IMG/VR virus record: IMGVR_UViG_3300037010_001793
Coordinates: 1-32,752 of that record
Length of the DNA stretch: 32,752 nucleotides
Source: a virus
Reading direction: 5' to 3' (one strand)
Under the pieces are notes generated by a model. It was not told the origin of the DNA and did no database searches. It worked only from the letters and a program-made list of their open reading frames with translations. Within the stretch, counting starts at the first letter, position 1. Each line of letters starts with the position of its first letter. The position numbers were made by a program, and so were the translations under genes. Below are positions 9,077 to 27,356 of this stretch, piece after piece.

Positions 9077-10420
9077 TCAGTCGTCCCCCAGTACGCGCAT
9101 CCGTCGCGCCCCGGCCAACTCCGCGAATGCGTCCGCGCTCGCGTCTACCTGGTCATCGCGCAAGCAGCCCTCCCTAAAGGAGCGCAACTCCGACAGGTAC
9201 GCATGGTTCCAAGCGCCGCGGATCGCCCAGACGTTCCCCGCGTTGACCTGCGAGGCGAACCCGGAGGCCCTGACCTCCTTCGCGCCAGTCACGGGAGCCG
9301 ACCGCATGTTGCATCCCGCCAACATTCGCGCCATGTGCAGAACCTGATCTTTGCCGGCTTGACCGGGGTCCTGCGGAATGCGGATCAACGCCGCGCGCCC
9401 GTCGACCTCCGCCGCCCGGCACATCAGCACGCCCACCGTGTAGTCGCCTCCGCCTGCAGTCGCCGCGAAGTCCCACGCTCGGCATAGAGCGACAGGAGCC
9501 GCCGGCGGATCGTCCAGGATTCGAACTCTGTCCGGCTTGAAAATCGAGCCCTCTCTCGGTTGAGGGTTCTGCTGGTAGAGCGCTTCAAAGCTACGTTCGC
9601 CATCGTTCTGGTCCATAACGGCCTTGATACGTAGCAACGCGTCACGATCGTACCGCTCCGGCCACAACGCCTCTCCCGGATTGCGCCCCAGCGGATCGTC
9701 CGCCTTCGCAATGGCAGGCAGGCTCAGCACCCGCCATCTGTCCGGCTCGCTCGCAATCGCCCGCGCGTCCAGCCCGTCCTCGTGCCAAGGCGTCATCACA
9801 ATCACGATCGCGCCGCCCGGGTCCAACCGCGTGAGCAGGTCGTCCGTGTAGTGGTCCCATGCCGCTTCCCGCTTGACGTCACTCTCGGCGTCCTCCCGGC
9901 TCCGGATCGGGTCGTCGATCACGATCAGGCGGAACCCCGTACCCGTCGGCGGACTGCCCATACCGCGGGTCATCATCACGCCGCCCGCCGTCGTATGCCA
10001 TTCGTCCGCCGCCGTGCTGTCCTGCGCAATCGCAATCCGGCCCTGCGCCAAGTTCCTCGCCTTGCGCCCCAGCCGCCGCGCGAACCGCTCGTTGTAGCCA
10101 CTGATCAGCACGTTCGCGGCAGGGTCCATCTCCAACATCCGCACCGCCAGCCGAACCGTCACATTCTCCGTTTTCCCGTGTCTCGGTGGCATCTTCACGG
10201 CGTAGCGGTCGCATCGGCCTTGCAGAACGTCGTCTACGTCCCGCGCCACTCGCCGAATGTGCCTCGGCAGGTACCAGCCATGCGGATAGGTGCGCAGGAG
10301 CCAGTCGGCGTAGCCGGCATTAGTCGTCGTCGTCGTCTTCGCTCGAAGACGTCGGCAGTACTCTTCCCTCAAGCTGCGCGATCTCGCGTCGTAGCTCATC
10401 GTCGGATAGACTAGAGACAT
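9077..10420 (-). CDS. terL: Terminase large subunit (TerL)
   Basis: This is the ATPase-nuclease that packages phage DNA. With ATG 10420 the product is 447 residues. Walker A is MPPRHGKT (about 77-84), Walker B is FRLIVIDDP (about 163-171), and the coupling motif is VIVMTPWH. The RNase H-like nuclease has CRAWDFAA (Asp near 317), GGGDYTVG (Asp near 326) and the late DDQVDASADAFAEL. The gene overlaps the small terminase gene by about 100 bases, which is longer than usual. ATG 10420 has an AGGTG ribosome site 7 bases away; ATG 10399 is an alternative with no clear site. Confidence 0.95.
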   Translation of the reverse strand: MSLVYPTMSYDARSRSLREEYCRRLRAKTTTTTNAGYADWLLRTYPHGWYLPRHIRRVARDVDDVLQGRCDRYAVKMPPRHGKTENVTVRLAVRMLEMDPAANVLISGYNERFARRLGRKARNLAQGRIAIAQDSTAADEWHTTAGGVMMTRGMGSPPTGTGFRLIVIDDPIRSREDAESDVKREAAWDHYTDDLLTRLDPGGAIVIVMTPWHEDGLDARAIASEPDRWRVLSLPAIAKADDPLGRNPGEALWPERYDRDALLRIKAVMDQNDGERSFEALYQQNPQPREGSIFKPDRVRILDDPPAAPVALCRAWDFAATAGGGDYTVGVLMCRAAEVDGRAALIRIPQDPGQAGKDQVLHMARMLAGCNMRSAPVTGAKEVRASGFASQVNAGNVWAIRGAWNHAYLSELRSFREGCLRDDQVDASADAFAELAGARRMRVLGDD

Positions 10421-10739
10421 CCATCTGCACCTGTTGCATGAACGGCGGGTTGTACCGCTCCGGCTTGTTGTGCGTGAGCATGAACTGCAGAAGGCGGTCA
10501 CTGCCCTTGAGTGCGCGCTGCCTGGCCACGTCTTCGAGCATCTCGTTACCGAGCTCCATCGCCTCAGCCCACCGCCGCGCGAACTCCTGCGAGTTTCGCT
10601 TGTACAGGTAGACCGTCTGCCGTGTCACCCGCGCCGCCTTCGCTGCGTGCGTCACGATACCCGTCTCGCCAAGCGTCTGGAAGAACGTCGCCCACCATCG
10701 GCGTTCCTCAAACGTCAGATTGGTAACATCTCTCGCCAT
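10320..10739 (-). CDS. terS: Terminase small subunit (TerS)
   Basis: This 139-residue protein recognises the packaging site and loads the large subunit. Residues about 25-50 form a helix-turn-helix (GIVTHAAKAARVTRQTVYLY), followed by the helical segment FARRWAEAMELGNEMLEDVARQRA, typical of the TerS oligomerisation region. The C-terminus ends in SSSEDDDDD, encoded by a run of GAC codons that is read in another frame by the large subunit as a Thr run. It overlaps both the Mom-like gene upstream and TerL downstream. Confidence 0.85.
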   Translation of the reverse strand: MARDVTNLTFEERRWWATFFQTLGETGIVTHAAKAARVTRQTVYLYKRNSQEFARRWAEAMELGNEMLEDVARQRALKGSDRLLQFMLTHNKPERYNPPFMQQVQMDVSSLSDDELRREIAQLEGRVLPTSSSEDDDDD

Positions 10740-12282: not shown

Positions 12283-12959
12283 CACCAGGTCACGTCGAAC
12301 GCAACCTGAATGTGATGGCCATCCTCGGTTACCATCAGCACCCGGTCTGCGTGTCCAATCGCCTGCAGCAGATCGTTTGCCACGAGGTGCGCGGACGGCG
12401 GGATCATCACAGTCGCATACCTCAGGCTCTCCGGGTTTTCCGGCCATTGCCCGGCGTATTCGAAACGCCAGAGCTGCAGTTTGCCGGGGAATGGCGGCGG
12501 CTCGATCCCGAGCGTGTGCCAGGCACCGTTCCAGACCTGAACATGGCACGCCTTCCACGCCGTGTCATCGGCGTAGCACCGGTAGTCCTCTCCCTCGCGC
12601 TGTCCCCACGCGACCTGCCCGCGCATTCTGACTACCCGGACAGTGTAGCTCAGGTGCTGCCCATCCTCGGTGCCGGCCACGACGATAGATGGAGAGGGAG
12701 GGCGCATTGTGTAGACGATCCGATAGATTGGGCCCTGCCGCTCGATGAACAGGCAGGTGCGTCTAGACCTCAGCTCATCGTCCGGTATCGCGTCCTCGAT
12801 CTCGGCGATCGTCGGGCGGCGGTCCTCCGGGGACCAGAATAGTCCGCGCGGAGGCAGCGCCTTGGACAGTTCCCAGACGTCCCGGTATTCGCGCACGATC
12901 CGCAGCGCCGCGTTCGCCATTGCCAGCGGGCATTTCGCCCAGGCCTCCTCCTGGTTCAT
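12282..12959 (-). CDS. Member A of the W-x3-P-x3-A-N-x-A-L-R family
   Basis: This 225-residue protein is of unknown function. Its N-terminus, EEAWAKCPLAMANAALRIVREY, is shared with three other proteins in this window (12956-13636, 24528-24908 and 25832-26509). A further shared block is the C-terminal HTLGIEPPPFPGKLQLWRF region, which matches the 'ALG..PPFPG' block of the plus-strand members, and LRYATVMIPPSAHLV, which matches LRYATVTIWPDAELT of 25832-26509. No catalytic motif or membrane span is visible. Its start overlaps the stop of the next family member, making a tandem pair. Confidence 0.75.
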   Translation of the reverse strand: MNQEEAWAKCPLAMANAALRIVREYRDVWELSKALPPRGLFWSPEDRRPTIAEIEDAIPDDELRSRRTCLFIERQGPIYRIVYTMRPPSPSIVVAGTEDGQHLSYTVRVVRMRGQVAWGQREGEDYRCYADDTAWKACHVQVWNGAWHTLGIEPPPFPGKLQLWRFEYAGQWPENPESLRYATVMIPPSAHLVANDLLQAIGHADRVLMVTEDGHHIQVAFDVTW

Positions 12960-22907: not shown

Positions 22908-24065
22908 ATGAACTACCAGAAGGCTCCATTTCCATGGTTCGGCGGGAAGGCCGACGCAGCGCCTACGGTTTGGGCCGCGCTCGGTGACGTGCCGCGCTAC
23001 GTCGAACCGTTCGCCGGGTCCCTCGCCGTGCTACTGCGCCGCCCGCATCCGGCCAACCGTCCATACTACTCCGAGACCGTGGCCGACATTGACGCGCTAC
23101 TGACCAACTTCTGGCGGTCGGTTCAGCTCAGGCCGCAGGAAACAGCGGAGGCGGCGAGCTACCCCGTCTCGGAGCTCGACAAACACGCGCGCGGGTGCTT
23201 CCTCCTAAAATGGCGGCAGAGCGAGGCGACGGCGCATCTGGCGGGCGATCCTACATTCTGCGATCCGGTAGTTGCCGGGTGGTGGGCATGGTGCGGGAGT
23301 TGCTCGATAGGGCCCTGGGGCACCGGCGGCCCGTGGTGGCCAGACGAAAACGGCATACTGCGCAAGATAAAGCGCGGGACGGGCGTGGTCGGCAGACTGC
23401 CTCATATCAGCGACAACGGACGGGGCGTTTACCCGTCCGGCGCGCGCGAGCCGGGGGTGGTTGGGAACCCCATCGACCCGTCGAATGACGTAGAGGCCGC
23501 AATCGCCAGCGACTACGAGGAAACTGGCGGCTACCATCCGATGACGATGCCGGAGGTACGCCGCTGGTTCGCGTTCCTGTCGGCCAGGCTCCGCCATGTC
23601 CGCATAATCAACGGCGATTGGTCCGGTGCGGTCAACGGGAGCTACGAGCGCGTCCTAACCTCCGGCGCGACGCTCACGCTCGCCGTGCGGCAGGATAAAG
23701 GGCCGTGTGGAGTGTTCCTCGACCCGCCTTATGGGGTAGATGACCGCTGCGACTATATCTACGGCGACAACGACAGTCTGCAGGTGGCCGCGCGCGTGCG
23801 CGAGTGGTGCCTAGAGCATGGCGACGACCCCCGCTATCGGATCGTCTACGCTGGGTTCGATCAGGAGGGGGGAGCGCTTGTCGCTGCCGGTTGGCGCGAG
23901 GTCGAATGGTTTCGAGACGGTCTCTTCAAGGGTGGCATGGGCAAGCAAAGGCAAAACAAGGGCGACGGCCCCGGCCATCAGCAGCACCGCGAGCGCCTCT
24001 GGCTATCGCCGCACTGCCTGCAGCCGGAGACAGACGCGCAGGACCAGACTACCCTCGCGCTCTAG
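22908..24065 (+). CDS. DNA adenine-N6 methyltransferase (Dam / D12 class)
   Basis: This 385-residue methylase has the class signature PFPWFGGK (near 7-14), the SAM-binding RYVEPFAGSLAVLL (near 30-43) and the catalytic DPPYGV (near 272-277). The late HRERLWLSP matches the family's C-terminal block. A Trp/Gly-rich insert of about 100 residues (about 120-220) separates SAM and catalytic motifs and may be the DNA-recognition part. No restriction endonuclease is beside it, so it is probably a solitary phage methylase that protects DNA or regulates expression. The ribosome site AGGAGAG is 7 bases from ATG 22908. It is the first gene of the plus-strand arm. Confidence 0.92.
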   Translation: MNYQKAPFPWFGGKADAAPTVWAALGDVPRYVEPFAGSLAVLLRRPHPANRPYYSETVADIDALLTNFWRSVQLRPQETAEAASYPVSELDKHARGCFLLKWRQSEATAHLAGDPTFCDPVVAGWWAWCGSCSIGPWGTGGPWWPDENGILRKIKRGTGVVGRLPHISDNGRGVYPSGAREPGVVGNPIDPSNDVEAAIASDYEETGGYHPMTMPEVRRWFAFLSARLRHVRIINGDWSGAVNGSYERVLTSGATLTLAVRQDKGPCGVFLDPPYGVDDRCDYIYGDNDSLQVAARVREWCLEHGDDPRYRIVYAGFDQEGGALVAAGWREVEWFRDGLFKGGMGKQRQNKGDGPGHQQHRERLWLSPHCLQPETDAQDQTTLAL

Positions 24066-24070
24066 CCGGG

Positions 24071-24093
24071 CCGAAAAAAACTCGGGATTTTTT
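24071..24093 (+). terminator. Intrinsic terminator after the methylase
   Basis: CCGA (24071-24074) and TCGG (24082-24085) close a short A-rich hairpin followed by TTTTTT (24088-24093). The stem is short. It matches the second hairpin at 24964-24987, so the two belong to a duplicated unit. Confidence 0.6.
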
Positions 24094-24104
24094 GCCGCTC
24101 CCTA

Positions 24105-24133
24105 TTGACAGTGTACCTACAACGTGGTATAGT
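24105..24133 (+). promoter_or_regulatory. Promoter of cassette 1
   Basis: TTGACA (24105-24110), a 17-base spacer and TATAGT (24128-24133). The spacer is nearly identical to that of the promoter at 24999-25027 (GTGTA, two bases differing, then TACAACGTGG), which points to a duplicated unit or a shared operator in the spacer. Confidence 0.85.
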
Positions 24134-24151
24134 ATACATGTAAGAACAAAC

Positions 24152-24190
24152 CCGTAAGCCGCTACCCGATCGGGGGCGCAGGGCCCGGAG
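24152..24190 (+). ncRNA. Leader RNA element, copy 1
   Basis: P1 is CCG (24152-24154) with CGG (24186-24188). P2 is CGCU, bulged A, CCC (24160-24167) with GGG-GGCG (24172-24178) around a GAUC loop. The ribosome site GGAG follows P1 directly and would be blocked when P1 forms. It begins about 12 bases after the expected start of transcription. Confidence 0.6.
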
Positions 24191-24196
24191 AATACA

Positions 24197-24412
24197 ATGT
24201 CCGCAACGTCCACGCAGTACACCCTCGGTACCCTTGCCCTTTACAATCGCTTTGACCTCTACCACCTCCTTGAGGACACGGCCCAGGGGCAGACGCTGCC
24301 CGAAACAATCAAGACCCTCCTGAGCCGTGCCGCCGACTTCGAGTACGAGGACCCTGCCACGGCCAGGGACCTCAAGGACCTAGCGAACAATCTCTGCTTC
24401 TACCTGCACTAA
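24197..24412 (+). CDS. Small unknown protein, cassette 1 gene 1
   Basis: This 71-residue protein (MSATSTQYTLGTLALYNRFD at the start) is helical, with LYHLLEDTAQGQTLPETIKT and TARDLKDLANNLCFYLH. No motif or membrane span is seen. It is the first gene after the cassette 1 promoter and leader element, with GGAG 7 bases before the ATG. Its stop is directly followed by a hammerhead-type ribozyme. The function is unknown; position suggests an early or anti-host role, but nothing in the sequence proves this. Confidence 0.65.
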   Translation: MSATSTQYTLGTLALYNRFDLYHLLEDTAQGQTLPETIKTLLSRAADFEYEDPATARDLKDLANNLCFYLH

Positions 24413-24471
24413 GCCGAAACCGGCCCTATGGCCGGTCTGCGATGGGGTGGCTCCCCGCGCACCGATGAGGC
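24413..24471 (+). ncRNA. Hammerhead ribozyme type II, core variant
   Basis: Stem II is GCC (24413-24415) with GGC (24469-24471). GAAA follows (24416-24419). Stem III is ACCGGCC with GGCCGGT (24419-24425, 24430-24436). The cleavage triplet GUC ends at 24437. Stem I is TGCG (24438-24441) with CGCA (24458-24461), with an inner GGGG/CCCC hairpin. The core reads CCGATGA (24462-24468) instead of CTGATGA, a change at U4 that may reduce activity. It starts on the base after the stop codon of the first cassette gene. Confidence 0.72.
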
Positions 24472-24483
24472 AAGCCAAACGAC

Positions 24484-24520
24484 CCGTAAGCCGCCACCCG
24501 AGAGGGGCGCAGGGACGGAG
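24484..24520 (+). ncRNA. Leader RNA element, copy 2
   Basis: P1 is CCG (24484-24486) with CGG (24516-24518). P2 is CGCC, bulged A, CC (24492-24498) with GG-GGCG (24504-24509). The fourth P2 pair is C-G where copy 1 has U-G and copy 4 has U-A. CGGAG again joins P1 to the ribosome site of the next gene. Confidence 0.6.
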
Positions 24521-24527
24521 TAGAACG

Positions 24528-24908
24528 ATGAACACTGAGCAGGTCTGGGAATCGCTCCCCGCGAGAATGCAGTTTGCGGCCACACGGATTGCGGACGAGT
24601 ACCATCTGCCGGGCTCCGTCGCTGAGAGGTCATTCGAATCCTGTGGCGAGTACTGCTGGTCCTGCCGCGCAAAGAACGGGCTTTCAACAATCATTCTGCG
24701 ATGGACCCCTGAGCGAGGGCTGCAGTATGTAGTCACTGTGCACTGCTTCAATGGAGCCCTCGCTCAGGCAACATTCTCCGGGCACGATGGCCTGACTGAT
24801 TGCCATGCACAAGTTGCTCCGTGGGGAGAGCACCACGTCGAGGCGTGGCGGCGCGCATGCAAGGCGATCGGGTCTGCCTCGGTTCCGTTCCCGGGGCGCA
24901 TCCCCTAG
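24528..24908 (+). CDS. Member C of the W-x3-P-x3-A-N-x-A-L-R family (short)
   Basis: This 126-residue protein starts MNTEQVWESLPARMQFAATR, a version of the family N-terminus (compare NAEQVWQSLPIDLANAALR at 25832). It ends with HHVEAWRRACKAIGSASVPF, matching the EAWNRAWEALGVTRPPFPG block of that protein, and then stops where the others continue with about 60 more residues. Its middle contains SCRAKNGLSTIILRWTPERG. The C-terminal domain is missing, by truncation or by design. A GGAG site lies 9 bases before ATG 24528. It follows the cassette 1 ribozyme and leader copy 2. Confidence 0.72.
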   Translation: MNTEQVWESLPARMQFAATRIADEYHLPGSVAERSFESCGEYCWSCRAKNGLSTIILRWTPERGLQYVVTVHCFNGALAQATFSGHDGLTDCHAQVAPWGEHHVEAWRRACKAIGSASVPFPGRIP

Positions 24909-24920
24909 CGCGGAGGCAAT

Positions 24921-24987
24921 GGCCTGGGCCGGGCAGAACGGTCCTCTCCCGGCCCAGGCCAAGCCGAAAAAAAACTTCGGGTTTTTT
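24921..24987 (+). terminator. Two-hairpin intrinsic terminator of cassette 1
   Basis: A perfect 13-bp stem, GGCCTGGGCCGGG (24921-24933) with CCCGGCCCAGGCC (24948-24960), is followed by a second hairpin CCGAA (24964-24968) / TTCGG (24976-24980) and TTTTTT (24982-24987). The second part resembles the terminator at 24071-24093. Confidence 0.85.
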
Positions 24988-24998
24988 CACTGCAGGGG

Positions 24999-25027
24999 TT
25001 GACAGTGTAGGTACAACGTGGTATAGT
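24999..25027 (+). promoter_or_regulatory. Promoter of cassette 2
   Basis: TTGACA (24999-25004), a 17-base spacer and TATAGT (25022-25027). It is almost the same sequence as the cassette 1 promoter and follows the same type of terminator, so terminator and promoter were duplicated together. Confidence 0.85.
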
Positions 25028-25044
25028 ATAGGTGTAGTGAGGAA

Positions 25045-25085
25045 CCGATAAGCCGCCACCCACCAAGGGGCGCACGGAACCGGAG
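25045..25085 (+). ncRNA. Leader RNA element, copy 3
   Basis: P1 is CCG (25045-25047) with CGG (25080-25082). P2 is CGCC, bulged A, CC (25054-25060) with GG-GGCG (25067-25072) and a CACCAA loop. The GGAG ribosome site of the next gene adjoins P1. The element begins about 11 bases after the expected transcription start. Confidence 0.6.
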
Positions 25086-25092
25086 AGATGAG

Positions 25093-25380
25093 ATGACTAA
25101 CAACAATCGCGGATGGATCGCCAACACCACCAAGGAGCAGCGGCTCGCGGAGCTCATCGACATGATGAACCGGTTCGCCGCCGGGTACGCGCAGGATGCC
25201 GAGCGGGCGGCTCACCTCGCGGAGGGTTATGACGTCGACCGCGAGGACGAGAACCTCGATGAGCGCGAGCGGCGAGCCTGCGCATACGAGGCCGGCCAGC
25301 AGTGGCAGTTGGCGTCCGACCTCCGCCGCCGATCGGAGGAGCTCAGCCACTTCGCGGAGATGCTCACTACCTGCCAGTAG
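25093..25380 (+). CDS. Small unknown protein, cassette 2 gene 1
   Basis: This 95-residue protein is almost wholly helical and very charged: AELIDMMNRFAAGYAQDAER, then YDVDREDENLDERERRACAY and LASDLRRRSEELSHFAEML. A long coiled coil is likely. It has no homology that I can see to the first gene of cassette 1, although both occupy the same place. GGAG precedes ATG 25093. The stop codon is followed one base later by a hammerhead ribozyme. The function is unknown. Confidence 0.68.
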   Translation: MTNNNRGWIANTTKEQRLAELIDMMNRFAAGYAQDAERAAHLAEGYDVDREDENLDERERRACAYEAGQQWQLASDLRRRSEELSHFAEMLTTCQ

Positions 25381-25381
25381 A

Positions 25382-25442
25382 TGCCGAAACCGGCCTCCTG
25401 GCCGGTCCACGGAGAGGCGGTTCCCCCCGTGCTGATGAGGCA
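25382..25442 (+). ncRNA. Hammerhead ribozyme type II, complete core
   Basis: Stem II is TGCC (25382-25385) with GGCA (25439-25442) and is the open stem. GAAA (25386-25389) leads into stem III, ACCGGCC (25389-25395) with GGCCGGT (25400-25406) and a TCCT loop. The cleavage triplet GUC ends at 25407, with predicted cutting after that base. Stem I is CACGG (25408-25412) with CCGTG (25427-25431). The core CTGATGA is at 25432-25438. All invariant core bases are present. It starts 2 bases after the stop codon of the upstream gene, so cutting would separate the two coding regions. Confidence 0.9.
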
Positions 25443-25445
25443 AAC

Positions 25446-25482
25446 CCGCGCAAGACGCTACCATGACCGGAGCGCAGCGGAG
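25446..25482 (+). ncRNA. Leader RNA element, copy 4
   Basis: P1 is CCG (25446-25448) with CGG (25478-25480). P2 is CGCU, bulged A, CC (25456-25462) with GG-AGCG (25469-25474). The fourth pair is U-A here, a compensated change relative to copies 2 and 3. It starts four bases after the ribozyme and carries the GGAGGAG site of the next gene. Confidence 0.6.
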
Positions 25483-25492
25483 GAGTAGGACG

Positions 25493-25744
25493 ATGCGATA
25501 CACGGTTGAGAACACGTTCCACCACACGCAGGCGACGTTTGTGGAGCGCCCAGACGGTACGATCAGCGCGCGCACGATGCGTCGGGTCCTGCGCGCTCTC
25601 TGCGGTAGCCCGACCTGCCTCTGCGACACGTCCCCGGCGAGCGGCTATGATGTGGAGTGGTTGAGCGGCTTCGAACCGGTGTACGACGGCCCTCGGATCG
25701 CGGCATACACGGTCTGGCATGGCGACCCCAACTACATCGACTGA
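25493..25744 (+). CDS. Small unknown protein, cassette 2 gene 2
   Basis: This 83-residue protein starts MRYTVENTFHHTQATFVERP and has RRVLRALCGSPTCLCD, where three Cys residues could bind a metal, then SGYDVEWLSGFEPVYDGPRI. It appears as a compact alpha/beta fold. ATG 25493 has a GGAGGAG site 8 bases upstream; an earlier ATG at 25463 lies inside the leader element and is rejected. The function is unknown. Confidence 0.65.
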   Translation: MRYTVENTFHHTQATFVERPDGTISARTMRRVLRALCGSPTCLCDTSPASGYDVEWLSGFEPVYDGPRIAAYTVWHGDPNYID

Positions 25745-25785
25745 CGTACAAGCCGCGCCAGCCAGGCAATAGGCGGGCCACGACA

Positions 25786-25822
25786 CCGCGCAATCCGTCA
25801 CCGACCCGGGACGCAGCGGAGG
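25786..25822 (+). ncRNA. Leader RNA element, copy 5
   Basis: P1 is CCG (25786-25788) with CGG (25817-25819). P2 is CGUC, bulged A, CC (25796-25802) with GG-GACG (25808-25813). Relative to the other copies, the third pair changed from C-G to U-A with both sides altered, keeping the helix. The GGAGGAG site of the next gene adjoins. No ribozyme precedes this copy. Confidence 0.58.
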
Positions 25823-25831
25823 AGATACGAG

Positions 25832-26509
25832 ATGAATGCTGAGCAGGTCTGGCAGTCATTGCCCATCGACCTCGCCAACGCGGCCCTGCGCATTGCCCGC
25901 GCCTACGAGCATGGATGGGCAAGGTCGCGGGTGGTGCCGCATGGCGAGGAGTTCTGGGAGGCCGACGACCTGCGCCCCACGCTTGAGGAGATCGCGTGCG
26001 AGACGCCCGAGGGCCCGATGGGGCCTGGAATCACGGGGCCGACTGTCTCATTCGTCCACGGCAGGTACCACGTGAGCCATACGACGATGACCGGTCGCGT
26101 TAGGATAGACGTCTGTCAGGGACCGGATGACGACTACGCCAGCTACACCGTTACAATATCGCGTCCTAATGGGGCGGAGGCGTACTCAACGGTCGAGGGC
26201 AGGCAGGAGTATGAGTTCGGCGCGATACAAACCGCCTGGGGAAACCGTCATATAGAGGCCTGGAACCGCGCCTGGGAAGCGCTGGGGGTCACTCGGCCTC
26301 CGTTCCCGGGCCTCGTGCGCGAGTGGTTCCTGGACCTGCACAAGGGCGACAGTGTCGACGTCAACGGGGACCTCCGCTACGCGACGGTGACGATCTGGCC
26401 GGACGCGGAGCTCACCGGGGACCTGTTCTACGACCTCGTCCGGATCGCAGATGCTGTCTATGTTCGCTGCTGTTCGGGGGCCACGATCAAGATCGTCGAG
26501 CAGAACTGA
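25832..26509 (+). CDS. Member D of the W-x3-P-x3-A-N-x-A-L-R family (full length)
   Basis: This 225-residue protein has the same length as member A at 12282-12959. N-terminus EQVWQSLPIDLANAALRIAR, then LRPTLEEIACETPEG (compare RRPTIAEIEDAIPDD in member A), EAWNRAWEALGVTRPPFPG, and LRYATVTIWPDAELTGDLFY with the end ADAVYVRCCSGATIKIVE (compare HADRVLMVTEDGHHIQV). So members on opposite arms are more alike than members of the tandem pair. The function is unknown. A GGAGGAG site precedes ATG 25832. Confidence 0.78.
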   Translation: MNAEQVWQSLPIDLANAALRIARAYEHGWARSRVVPHGEEFWEADDLRPTLEEIACETPEGPMGPGITGPTVSFVHGRYHVSHTTMTGRVRIDVCQGPDDDYASYTVTISRPNGAEAYSTVEGRQEYEFGAIQTAWGNRHIEAWNRAWEALGVTRPPFPGLVREWFLDLHKGDSVDVNGDLRYATVTIWPDAELTGDLFYDLVRIADAVYVRCCSGATIKIVEQN

Positions 26510-26529
26510 AACCGGGGCGGGCCGGTTTC
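26508..26529 (+). terminator. Intergenic hairpin after member D
   Basis: GAAACCGG (26508-26515) and CCGGTTTC (26522-26529) make an 8-bp stem that begins in the stop codon. An alternative stem GGGGCGG (26514-26520) with CCGCCCC (26529-26535) is also possible. No U-run follows, so this is likely partial termination or mRNA processing. Confidence 0.45.
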
Positions 26530-26559
26530 CGCCCCACTCACTCAAGGGAGGAGATGGCA

Positions 26560-26898
26560 ATGAAGGCAGTGATTGACGGAGTTCGGTACGACACGATGCG
26601 CGCTATCGCGGTGGTTCGGGTGTCCGGAGGCACCGACCCCCACTCCCGGTACCGCGGGCAGCTCTACGTGACGCCACGCTCACGGCGATGGTTCGTCGTC
26701 GGAGACGGTGGACCACTGAGTATGTTCGGGAAGACCGTGGGCAATGTGTCCACGAGCGGTTCCGGTCTGGTTCCCCTGTCGCCAGAGCGTGTCCGGGAAA
26801 TCCTCGAACGCGGCGACGACGAGTGCCAGCGCGCGCTCGATGCCTACGCCGAGGAACTGGGCGTCATCGACGCCGACAGTCTCCCGGTCGCGGTATGA
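26560..26898 (+). CDS. IDGVxYDT-family phage protein, first copy
   Basis: This 112-residue protein starts MKAVIDGVRYDTMRAIAVVR and has RGQLYVTPRSRRWFVVGDGG, then SGSGLVPLSPERVREILERG. The layout of a 'xIDGxxYDT' strand start, a 'LYxxxxxxWFxxGxGG' hairpin and a 'G-x-G-x-x-P-L-S' helix cap is known from many uncharacterised phage and mobile-element proteins. ATG 26560 gives 8 bases to GGAGG; ATG 26554 is too close. The function is unknown. It overlaps the next frame's first possible ATG (26895). Confidence 0.75.
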   Translation: MKAVIDGVRYDTMRAIAVVRVSGGTDPHSRYRGQLYVTPRSRRWFVVGDGGPLSMFGKTVGNVSTSGSGLVPLSPERVREILERGDDECQRALDAYAEELGVIDADSLPVAV

Positions 26899-26915
26899 GG
26901 GAGGATCAAACAGAG

Positions 26916-27356
26916 ATGCGACAAGCCATTGACGGCGTGACCTACGATACTCGGCGCGCGATTCCGGTCGCGCAACTATCCAACAACCCACTCGACCAGG
27001 ACATCGGATGGATGGCAACGCTGTACTATGCCCCTCGCGGCGGGAGGTGGTTCCTGGCGGGTGAGGGAGGCGCGGCGACGGAGTTCGGCACACAACGCGA
27101 TGACGGCAGGATGATGTCGGGCTCAGGCATCATACCGATCACCCCAGCACGCGCCCGCCAGTTGCTGGAGGATGGCAGGCAGAAGGAGGCGCTTGAGGAG
27201 TTTGGCGAGGTACTCGGGATCGTAGATGTCGAGGAGCCTCGGGATCGCGTGATCAGGTTCCGCCTCTCAGGGGCGGAGTTGGCGAACATTCGCCGGCGCG
27301 CGGAGGAGGAGTGTTTGACCATGAGCCAGTTCATCAGGAAGTGCGTCAACCGCTGA
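26916..27356 (+). CDS. IDGVxYDT-family phage protein with ribbon-helix-helix tail, second copy
   Basis: This 146-residue protein matches the previous one over its first 110 residues: MRQAIDGVTYDTRRAIPVAQ, LYYAPRGGRWFLAGEGGAAT and SGSGIIPITPARARQLLEDG. It then adds about 35 residues, DRVIRFRLSGAELANIRRRA with EEECLTMSQFIRKCVNR, a likely ribbon-helix-helix DNA-binding unit of the CopG/mobilisation type. ATG 26916 is set by alignment to its neighbour; ATG 26895 is an alternative coupled to the previous stop. A DNA-binding role is inferred from the tail. It is the last gene of the plus-strand arm. Confidence 0.75.
   Translation: MRQAIDGVTYDTRRAIPVAQLSNNPLDQDIGWMATLYYAPRGGRWFLAGEGGAATEFGTQRDDGRMMSGSGIIPITPARARQLLEDGRQKEALEEFGEVLGIVDVEEPRDRVIRFRLSGAELANIRRRAEEECLTMSQFIRKCVNR

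Follow-up and report, generated by a model that had tools for sequence, protein, structure and literature searches.

Judged by its sequence, fold and covariance score, the element at 25382-25449 on the + strand of the window (the entire 32,752-nt stretch of DNA analysed here, from an uncultured phage) is a complete type II hammerhead ribozyme. It probably cuts a two-gene mRNA between the stop codon of one gene and the ribosome site of the next. We refer to it as copy 2, since a further type II hammerhead, copy 1, lies ~970 nt upstream on the same strand and was absent from an earlier, sequence-only reading of this DNA. Sequence, fold, pseudoknot pairing, placement and conservation were observed directly and support the processing role; from them we infer the cleavage, the ends that it would leave and its purpose.

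Sequence and fold of the two ribozymes

The whole 32.7-kb window was compared with 4227 Rfam families (cmscan), which is the covariance check that the sequence-only reading had proposed. Only two matches reached the curated cut-off, both to Hammerhead_II (RF02276) and both on the + strand. The match at 25382-25449 scores 44.2 bits (E 4.6e-6, gathering cut-off 37). On re-reading the sequence, the elements of a complete type II fold were found at 25382-25442 in the order originally described, and the GUC triplet with its predicted cut after 25407 agrees with the Rfam model, the pseudoknot test and conservation in relatives. The ribozyme features, all on the + strand, are:

24412-24480, +, type II hammerhead ribozyme, copy 1 (Rfam RF02276 43.6 bits and structural descriptor)
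24437, +, copy 1 expected cleavage, predicted after C24437
24448-24452 (UGGCU) and 24473-24477 (AGCCA), +, copy 1 pseudoknot contact (descriptor)
24462-24468, +, copy 1 core CCGAUGA, carrying U4C (descriptor)
25382-25449, +, type II hammerhead ribozyme, copy 2 (Rfam RF02276 44.2 bits and structural descriptor)
25382-25385 (UGCC) and 25439-25442 (GGCA), +, copy 2 stem II (read from sequence)
25386-25389, +, copy 2 GAAA (read from sequence)
25389-25395 (A-CCGGCC) and 25400-25406 (GGCCGG-U), +, copy 2 stem III, 7 bp including the A15.1-U16.1 pair
25405-25407, +, copy 2 GUC cleavage site, predicted cut after C25407
25408-25412 (CACGG) and 25427-25431 (CCGUG), +, copy 2 stem I (sequence)
25418-25422, +, 5-nt loop of the copy 2 stem I inner helix (sequence)
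25419-25422 (GGUU, loop I) and 25443-25446 (AACC, 3' tail), +, copy 2 pseudoknot contact (sequence)
25432-25438, +, copy 2 core CUGAUGA (sequence)

The Rfam match and the descriptor both place copy 2 in the permuted order, with stems I and III closed and stem II open. Its core contains CUGANGA, GAAA, the A15.1-U16.1 pair and a UH site, here as CUGAUGA, GAAA and GUC. Stem II is only 3-4 bp long and no T run lies 3' of stem III. The folding energy of copy 2 is ordinary (z -1.05) and uninformative as evidence, as can be expected of a short motif recognised by its core.

The pseudoknot between loop I and the 3' tail, typical for natural type II hammerheads, was not mentioned in the earlier reading. 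It comprises four uninterrupted pairs in copy 2 and five in copy 1; the letters differ and the pairing is kept. Among phage ribozymes, at least five Watson-Crick pairs were found in 39% of 167 distinct loop/tail pairs, as against 3.9% when tails were exchanged among ribozymes. This agrees with the published frequency, according to which a majority of type II hammerheads, not all, have a potential pseudoknot of at least four pairs (PMC3088659). In one construct, a shortened pseudoknot reduced the cleavage rate by a factor of about 20 to more than 100 (PMC3088659).

Copy 1 departs from the canonical core by one substitution (U4C) and still passes the Rfam cut-off of 37. It is described here as a core variant rather than a canonical member. 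It was probably overlooked in the first reading because its core is CCGAUGA rather than CUGAUGA. The substitution may also be a sequence error in this single contig.

Gene neighbourhood and close relatives

Both ribozymes lie in a + strand gene cluster (22908-27356) opposing genes on the other strand, which include one for a terminase-like protein (9077-10501). At the head of the cluster, 22908-24065 has an N-terminal match to D12-class adenine methyltransferases (PF02086, PHROG 56). The features that surround the ribozymes form two transcription units:

24105-24133, +, sigma-70-type promoter of unit 1, TTGACA-17-TATAGT (11/12 matches)
24197-24412, +, 71-aa ORF opening unit 1; its TAA stop codon reaches to 24412 and abuts copy 1 stem II
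24528-24908, +, 126-aa ORF 3' of copy 1; blastp against its paralogue, the 225-aa ORF, gives 30% identity (E 3.7e-12)
24964-24988, +, terminator-like hairpin and T run between the units
24999-25027, +, sigma-70-type promoter of unit 2, TTGACA-17-TATAGT (11/12 matches)
25093-25380, +, 95-aa ORF 5' of copy 2, closed by the TAG at 25378-25380
25450-25480, +, leader hairpin (AAGACGCUACC...GGAGCGCAG) before the gene 3' of copy 2
25493-25744, +, 83-aa ORF 3' of copy 2, behind GGAGGAG; 95% identical in L123/L124
25832-26509, +, 225-aa ORF, next gene of unit 2; its counterpart in L023 lies directly behind the copy-2 ribozyme

Unit 1 thus runs from the promoter at 24105 through the 71-aa ORF, copy 1 and the 126-aa ORF to the terminator-like hairpin, and unit 2 from the promoter at 24999 through the 95-aa ORF, copy 2, the 83-aa ORF and the 225-aa ORF to further genes. 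In each unit the first gene directly precedes its ribozyme. The location of copy 2 between a stop codon (TAG, 25378-25380) and the leader of the next gene, as first proposed, was confirmed. The genes adjoining the ribozymes have no Pfam or PHROG match that would give a function, and the 71-aa ORF has no match of either kind. No family is common to 75 downstream proteins from other phages.

Versions of the leader hairpin (AAGCCGC-ACCC...GGGGCGCAG) occur at 24156, 24488, 25050 and 25452, with a partial one near 25751. They lie behind promoters and ribozymes alike, ahead of several + strand genes, and may provide a stabilising or regulatory 5' element. Since the leader is common to promoters and ribozymes, the 5' region of a cut inner gene would resemble that of a primary transcript.

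Other repeated arrangements were observed in the window. A terminator-like hairpin with A and T tracts is followed at once by a near-consensus promoter at 24073-24133 and again at 24966-25027. The cluster includes a second pair of small paralogous genes (26554-26898 and 26916-27356, 39% identity), and the starts of two - strand ORFs near 12959 and 13650 resemble, by eye, those of the 126-aa/225-aa pair.

The closest contigs found (L023, L101, L123/L050, L124/L185 and L184, where each pair of labels denotes one contig) share mostly ~79-95% DNA identity with the window along long stretches. Copy 2 is retained in all of them, and Rfam confirms the ribozymes of L023 (two), L101 and L123. The neighbouring genes vary. 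Upstream of copy 2, the window and L023 have the 95-aa ORF, and L101 and L123 an unrelated 69-aa ORF with the same type of promoter and leader. Downstream, the window and L123 carry the 83-aa ORF, whereas in L023 the ribozyme is followed directly by the 225-aa ORF. L023 also has copy 1; what separates the two ribozymes in the window, namely the 126-aa gene, the terminator and the promoter, is absent there. Close relatives therefore share the ribozyme but differ in the gene on one side of it or the other, and such contigs constitute natural controls.

A possible switch was considered and rejected as chance. The motif CUACCUGC stands just before both stop codons in the window and could mask the next ribosome site through a GCAG-SD-GUAG arrangement freed by cutting, with a predicted change in site accessibility at both copies. 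It is absent before the ribozymes of L101 and L123 and before copy 2 of L023, which led to its rejection.

Abundance, placement and core variation in phages

Type II hammerheads are common in phages. A strict pattern (GCC-GAAAC...GGTC...CTGATGAGGC) matches at least 120 stretches in IMG/VR, and a narrower pattern counted nine canonical stretches, five of them among the 120 listed strict-pattern matches; as a rough estimate, the IMG/VR total for the strict pattern is near 200. These numbers, together with the 2011 study of Perreault et al. (PMC3088659), contradict the earlier statement that few hammerheads are known as sites of mRNA processing between phage genes. The GTDB genomes, with 257 billion bases, contain 22 matching stretches, of which about a dozen are estimated to match by chance, so that the bacterial matches are weak evidence of frequency. 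A descriptor requiring all three stems found 254 motifs in the collected loci and the window, with up to ten type II hammerheads per locus; where a locus has several, they are all on one strand (48/48). The window conforms to the prophage arrays, in which several ribozymes flank single genes or short blocks, with its two copies 970 nt apart. In loci L118, L116, L005, L082 and L085, successive phage genes are punctuated by arrays of 7 to 10 type II hammerheads, all on the same strand. In a named phage, Dulem virus 39, a similar sequence separates two annotated genes, the match starting 12 bases past the end of the first.

Phage type II hammerheads usually begin at the end of one gene and reach nearly to the next ribosome site. 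In 154 of 195 (79%) distinct canonical ribozymes from viral contigs, the distance between a stop codon and stem II is -1 to +10 nt, compared with ~8% of random positions from the same loci; for this count the stop had to end a frame of at least 40 codons, and no gene caller was used. The same holds for 16 of 17 ribozymes in bacterial genomes. With a simple gene caller, the ribozyme starts a median of 1 nt past the upstream stop, and the next start codon is a median of 20 nt behind its tail. Measured from the stop, the most frequent distances are 2-4 nt to GAAA and 23-31 nt to the cleavage site. The upstream proteins fall into 187 clusters, which argues against one lineage having been counted repeatedly. 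Stop-codon adjacency may in part be a product of compact phage gene spacing: where the slack is 30 nt or more, 25 of 35 ribozymes are nearer the stop, but at 60 nt or more only 8 of 13 are, and some ribozymes in roomy spaces lie on the start side.

U4C is found well beyond copy 1. A pattern allowing A, C or G at position 4 matched 33 stretches in IMG/VR. The complete folds among them comprise 28 with C, of which 21 are distinct, and a single one with A; G occurs in none. Eighteen of the 21 distinct U4C ribozymes lie beside a stop codon. Among control patterns for other transitions, A6G gave no match, and G5A and A9G gave one match each in viral contigs, both without stems and gene context; one further G5A motif is present in a bacterial genome (locus L143). 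The two U4G stretches, one of the two U4A stretches and the single viral G5A and A9G matches were taken as chance in view of incomplete stems or gene context. U4C thus looks like a specifically tolerated core variant in phages, since the other core changes gave at most one real case.

In the relative L023 the counterpart of copy 1 has the canonical U4, so one of the two lines has changed recently at this position. Decay of copy 1 is not our default reading despite this canonical counterpart, since U4C recurs in so many distinct complete folds, most of them beside a stop codon. The same substitution is carried by a viroid hammerhead, from a plant RNA pathogen in which the ribozyme has a replication role; as cited in PMC3088659, its activity is considerably lowered in vitro, yet sufficient in vivo.

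Proposed mRNA processing and competing explanations

We propose that a transcript would start at the promoter at 24999 and be translated through the 95-aa gene, and that the hammerhead would fold just past the stop codon. By the established hammerhead reaction, transesterification after C25407 would leave an upstream message ending ~27 nt past the stop with the stem III hairpin and a 2',3'-cyclic phosphate. The downstream message would have a 5'-hydroxyl end, with stem I and the leader hairpin ahead of the 83-aa and following genes. Judging from ribosome footprints, the position of the new 3' end would leave room for normal termination. Copy 1 would have the same role in the preceding unit, probably acting more slowly because of its U4C core. 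The purpose would be to uncouple the first gene, in its stability and expression, from the genes behind it.

Many of these elements have been known since 2011: type II hammerheads in prophage clusters, the pseudoknot, activity and the processing hypothesis (PMC3088659). Perreault et al. reported that hammerheads, type II among them, flank single prophage genes; they assayed polycistronic transcripts of ~2 kb, with three tandem arrangements, for cleavage, found that one array cleaves in E. coli, and proposed processing into gene-length mRNAs (PMC3088659). The copies described here resemble those prophage and metagenome hammerheads (RF02276; PMC3088659) in their permuted order, open stem II, pseudoknot and clustering around single phage genes. 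Copy 2 has all the core nucleotides and differs in nothing essential, whereas copy 1 carries U4C. Docking at stop codons was measured in the present work, and the words "stop codon" are absent from the main text of PMC3088659. Among the open-access papers searched, which leave out most subscription journals, we found none with a measurement of such docking or with U4C described as a recurrent phage variant; for that reason we claim no priority. A 2017 review regards the role of natural hammerheads in prokaryotes and phages as an open question (PMC6155905).

Two further systems are comparable. As summarised in PMC3088659, the HHphage hammerhead of haloviruses HF1/HF2 lies 13 nt before a start codon, and the 5' end of its transcript maps within 3 nt of the cut site; it has core insertions and precedes the first gene of a polycistronic transcript, whereas copy 2 has a canonical core and a gene on each side. 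The other is a hammerhead with a pseudoknot whose crystal structure has been solved; its cleavage rate is 16 per min in 2 M NaCl and 1 mM Mg, with G12 as the base and the G8 2'-OH as the acid (PMC11300833). Like the window ribozyme it combines a hammerhead core with a loop pseudoknot; it differs in being a construct made to cut a separate substrate strand and in a six-pair pseudoknot, that of the window being shorter.

Cutting might also be gated by ribosomes, occurring only on poorly translated or fully traversed RNA so that the ribozyme acts as a translation sensor. We regard this as possible though rather doubtful. Stem II, GAAA and some of stem III would be hidden under a terminating ribosome and the pseudoknot tail under a loading one, a geometry with which the distances from stop codon to GAAA and to cleavage site and from ribozyme tail to next start codon are consistent; the placement is moreover alike for canonical, U4C and bacterial-genome ribozymes. 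However, compact gene spacing alone predicts much of this placement, a pseudoknot hammerhead can cut within seconds, possibly ahead of ribosomes, and the start codon in the window is 44 nt from the copy 2 match with a hairpin between. A wider proposal, which we offer tentatively, is that phage type II hammerheads are general stop-codon punctuation, with the passage of ribosomes controlling when they cut and the recurrent, slower U4C core tuning the cutting. If true, a phage could fix the speed of message separation gene by gene, and the window holds both cores. The position between stop codon and ribosome site beside unrelated genes and the recurrence of U4C lead to testable predictions on translation-coupled mRNA processing.

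Two other explanations are less likely than mRNA processing. The ribozyme, promoter and leader could be neutral relics or a recombination seam that offers homology for swaps of small genes, cleavage being incidental. The exchange of neighbours among relatives, in which ribozyme and leader stay alike, is in keeping with this idea, which nevertheless appears improbable: core, stems and pseudoknot are preserved despite letter changes, and U4C alone recurs among the core substitutions tested, where neutral drift would spread over the core. Very improbable is that the 5'-OH and cyclic-phosphate ends serve as ligation substrates for an RtcB-like host ligase, giving circular or spliced RNA such as the ~970-nt piece between the copies. 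Two same-strand copies at this distance and the gene-sized spacing common in arrays would suit such products, but a terminator-like hairpin and a promoter separate the copies, many loci have only one ribozyme in the stretch read, and Perreault et al. sought spliced or circular products and found none (PMC3088659).

Finally, a chance match or plain hairpin such as a terminator, for which the ordinary folding energy might speak, is almost certainly not the explanation, being at odds with the covariance score as well as the pseudoknot test: the curated cut-off is exceeded twice in 32.7 kb, stem III has no T run behind it, mononucleotide-shuffled loci yielded no motif with the structural descriptor, and the Rfam scan of 14 control genomes returned no Hammerhead_II match.
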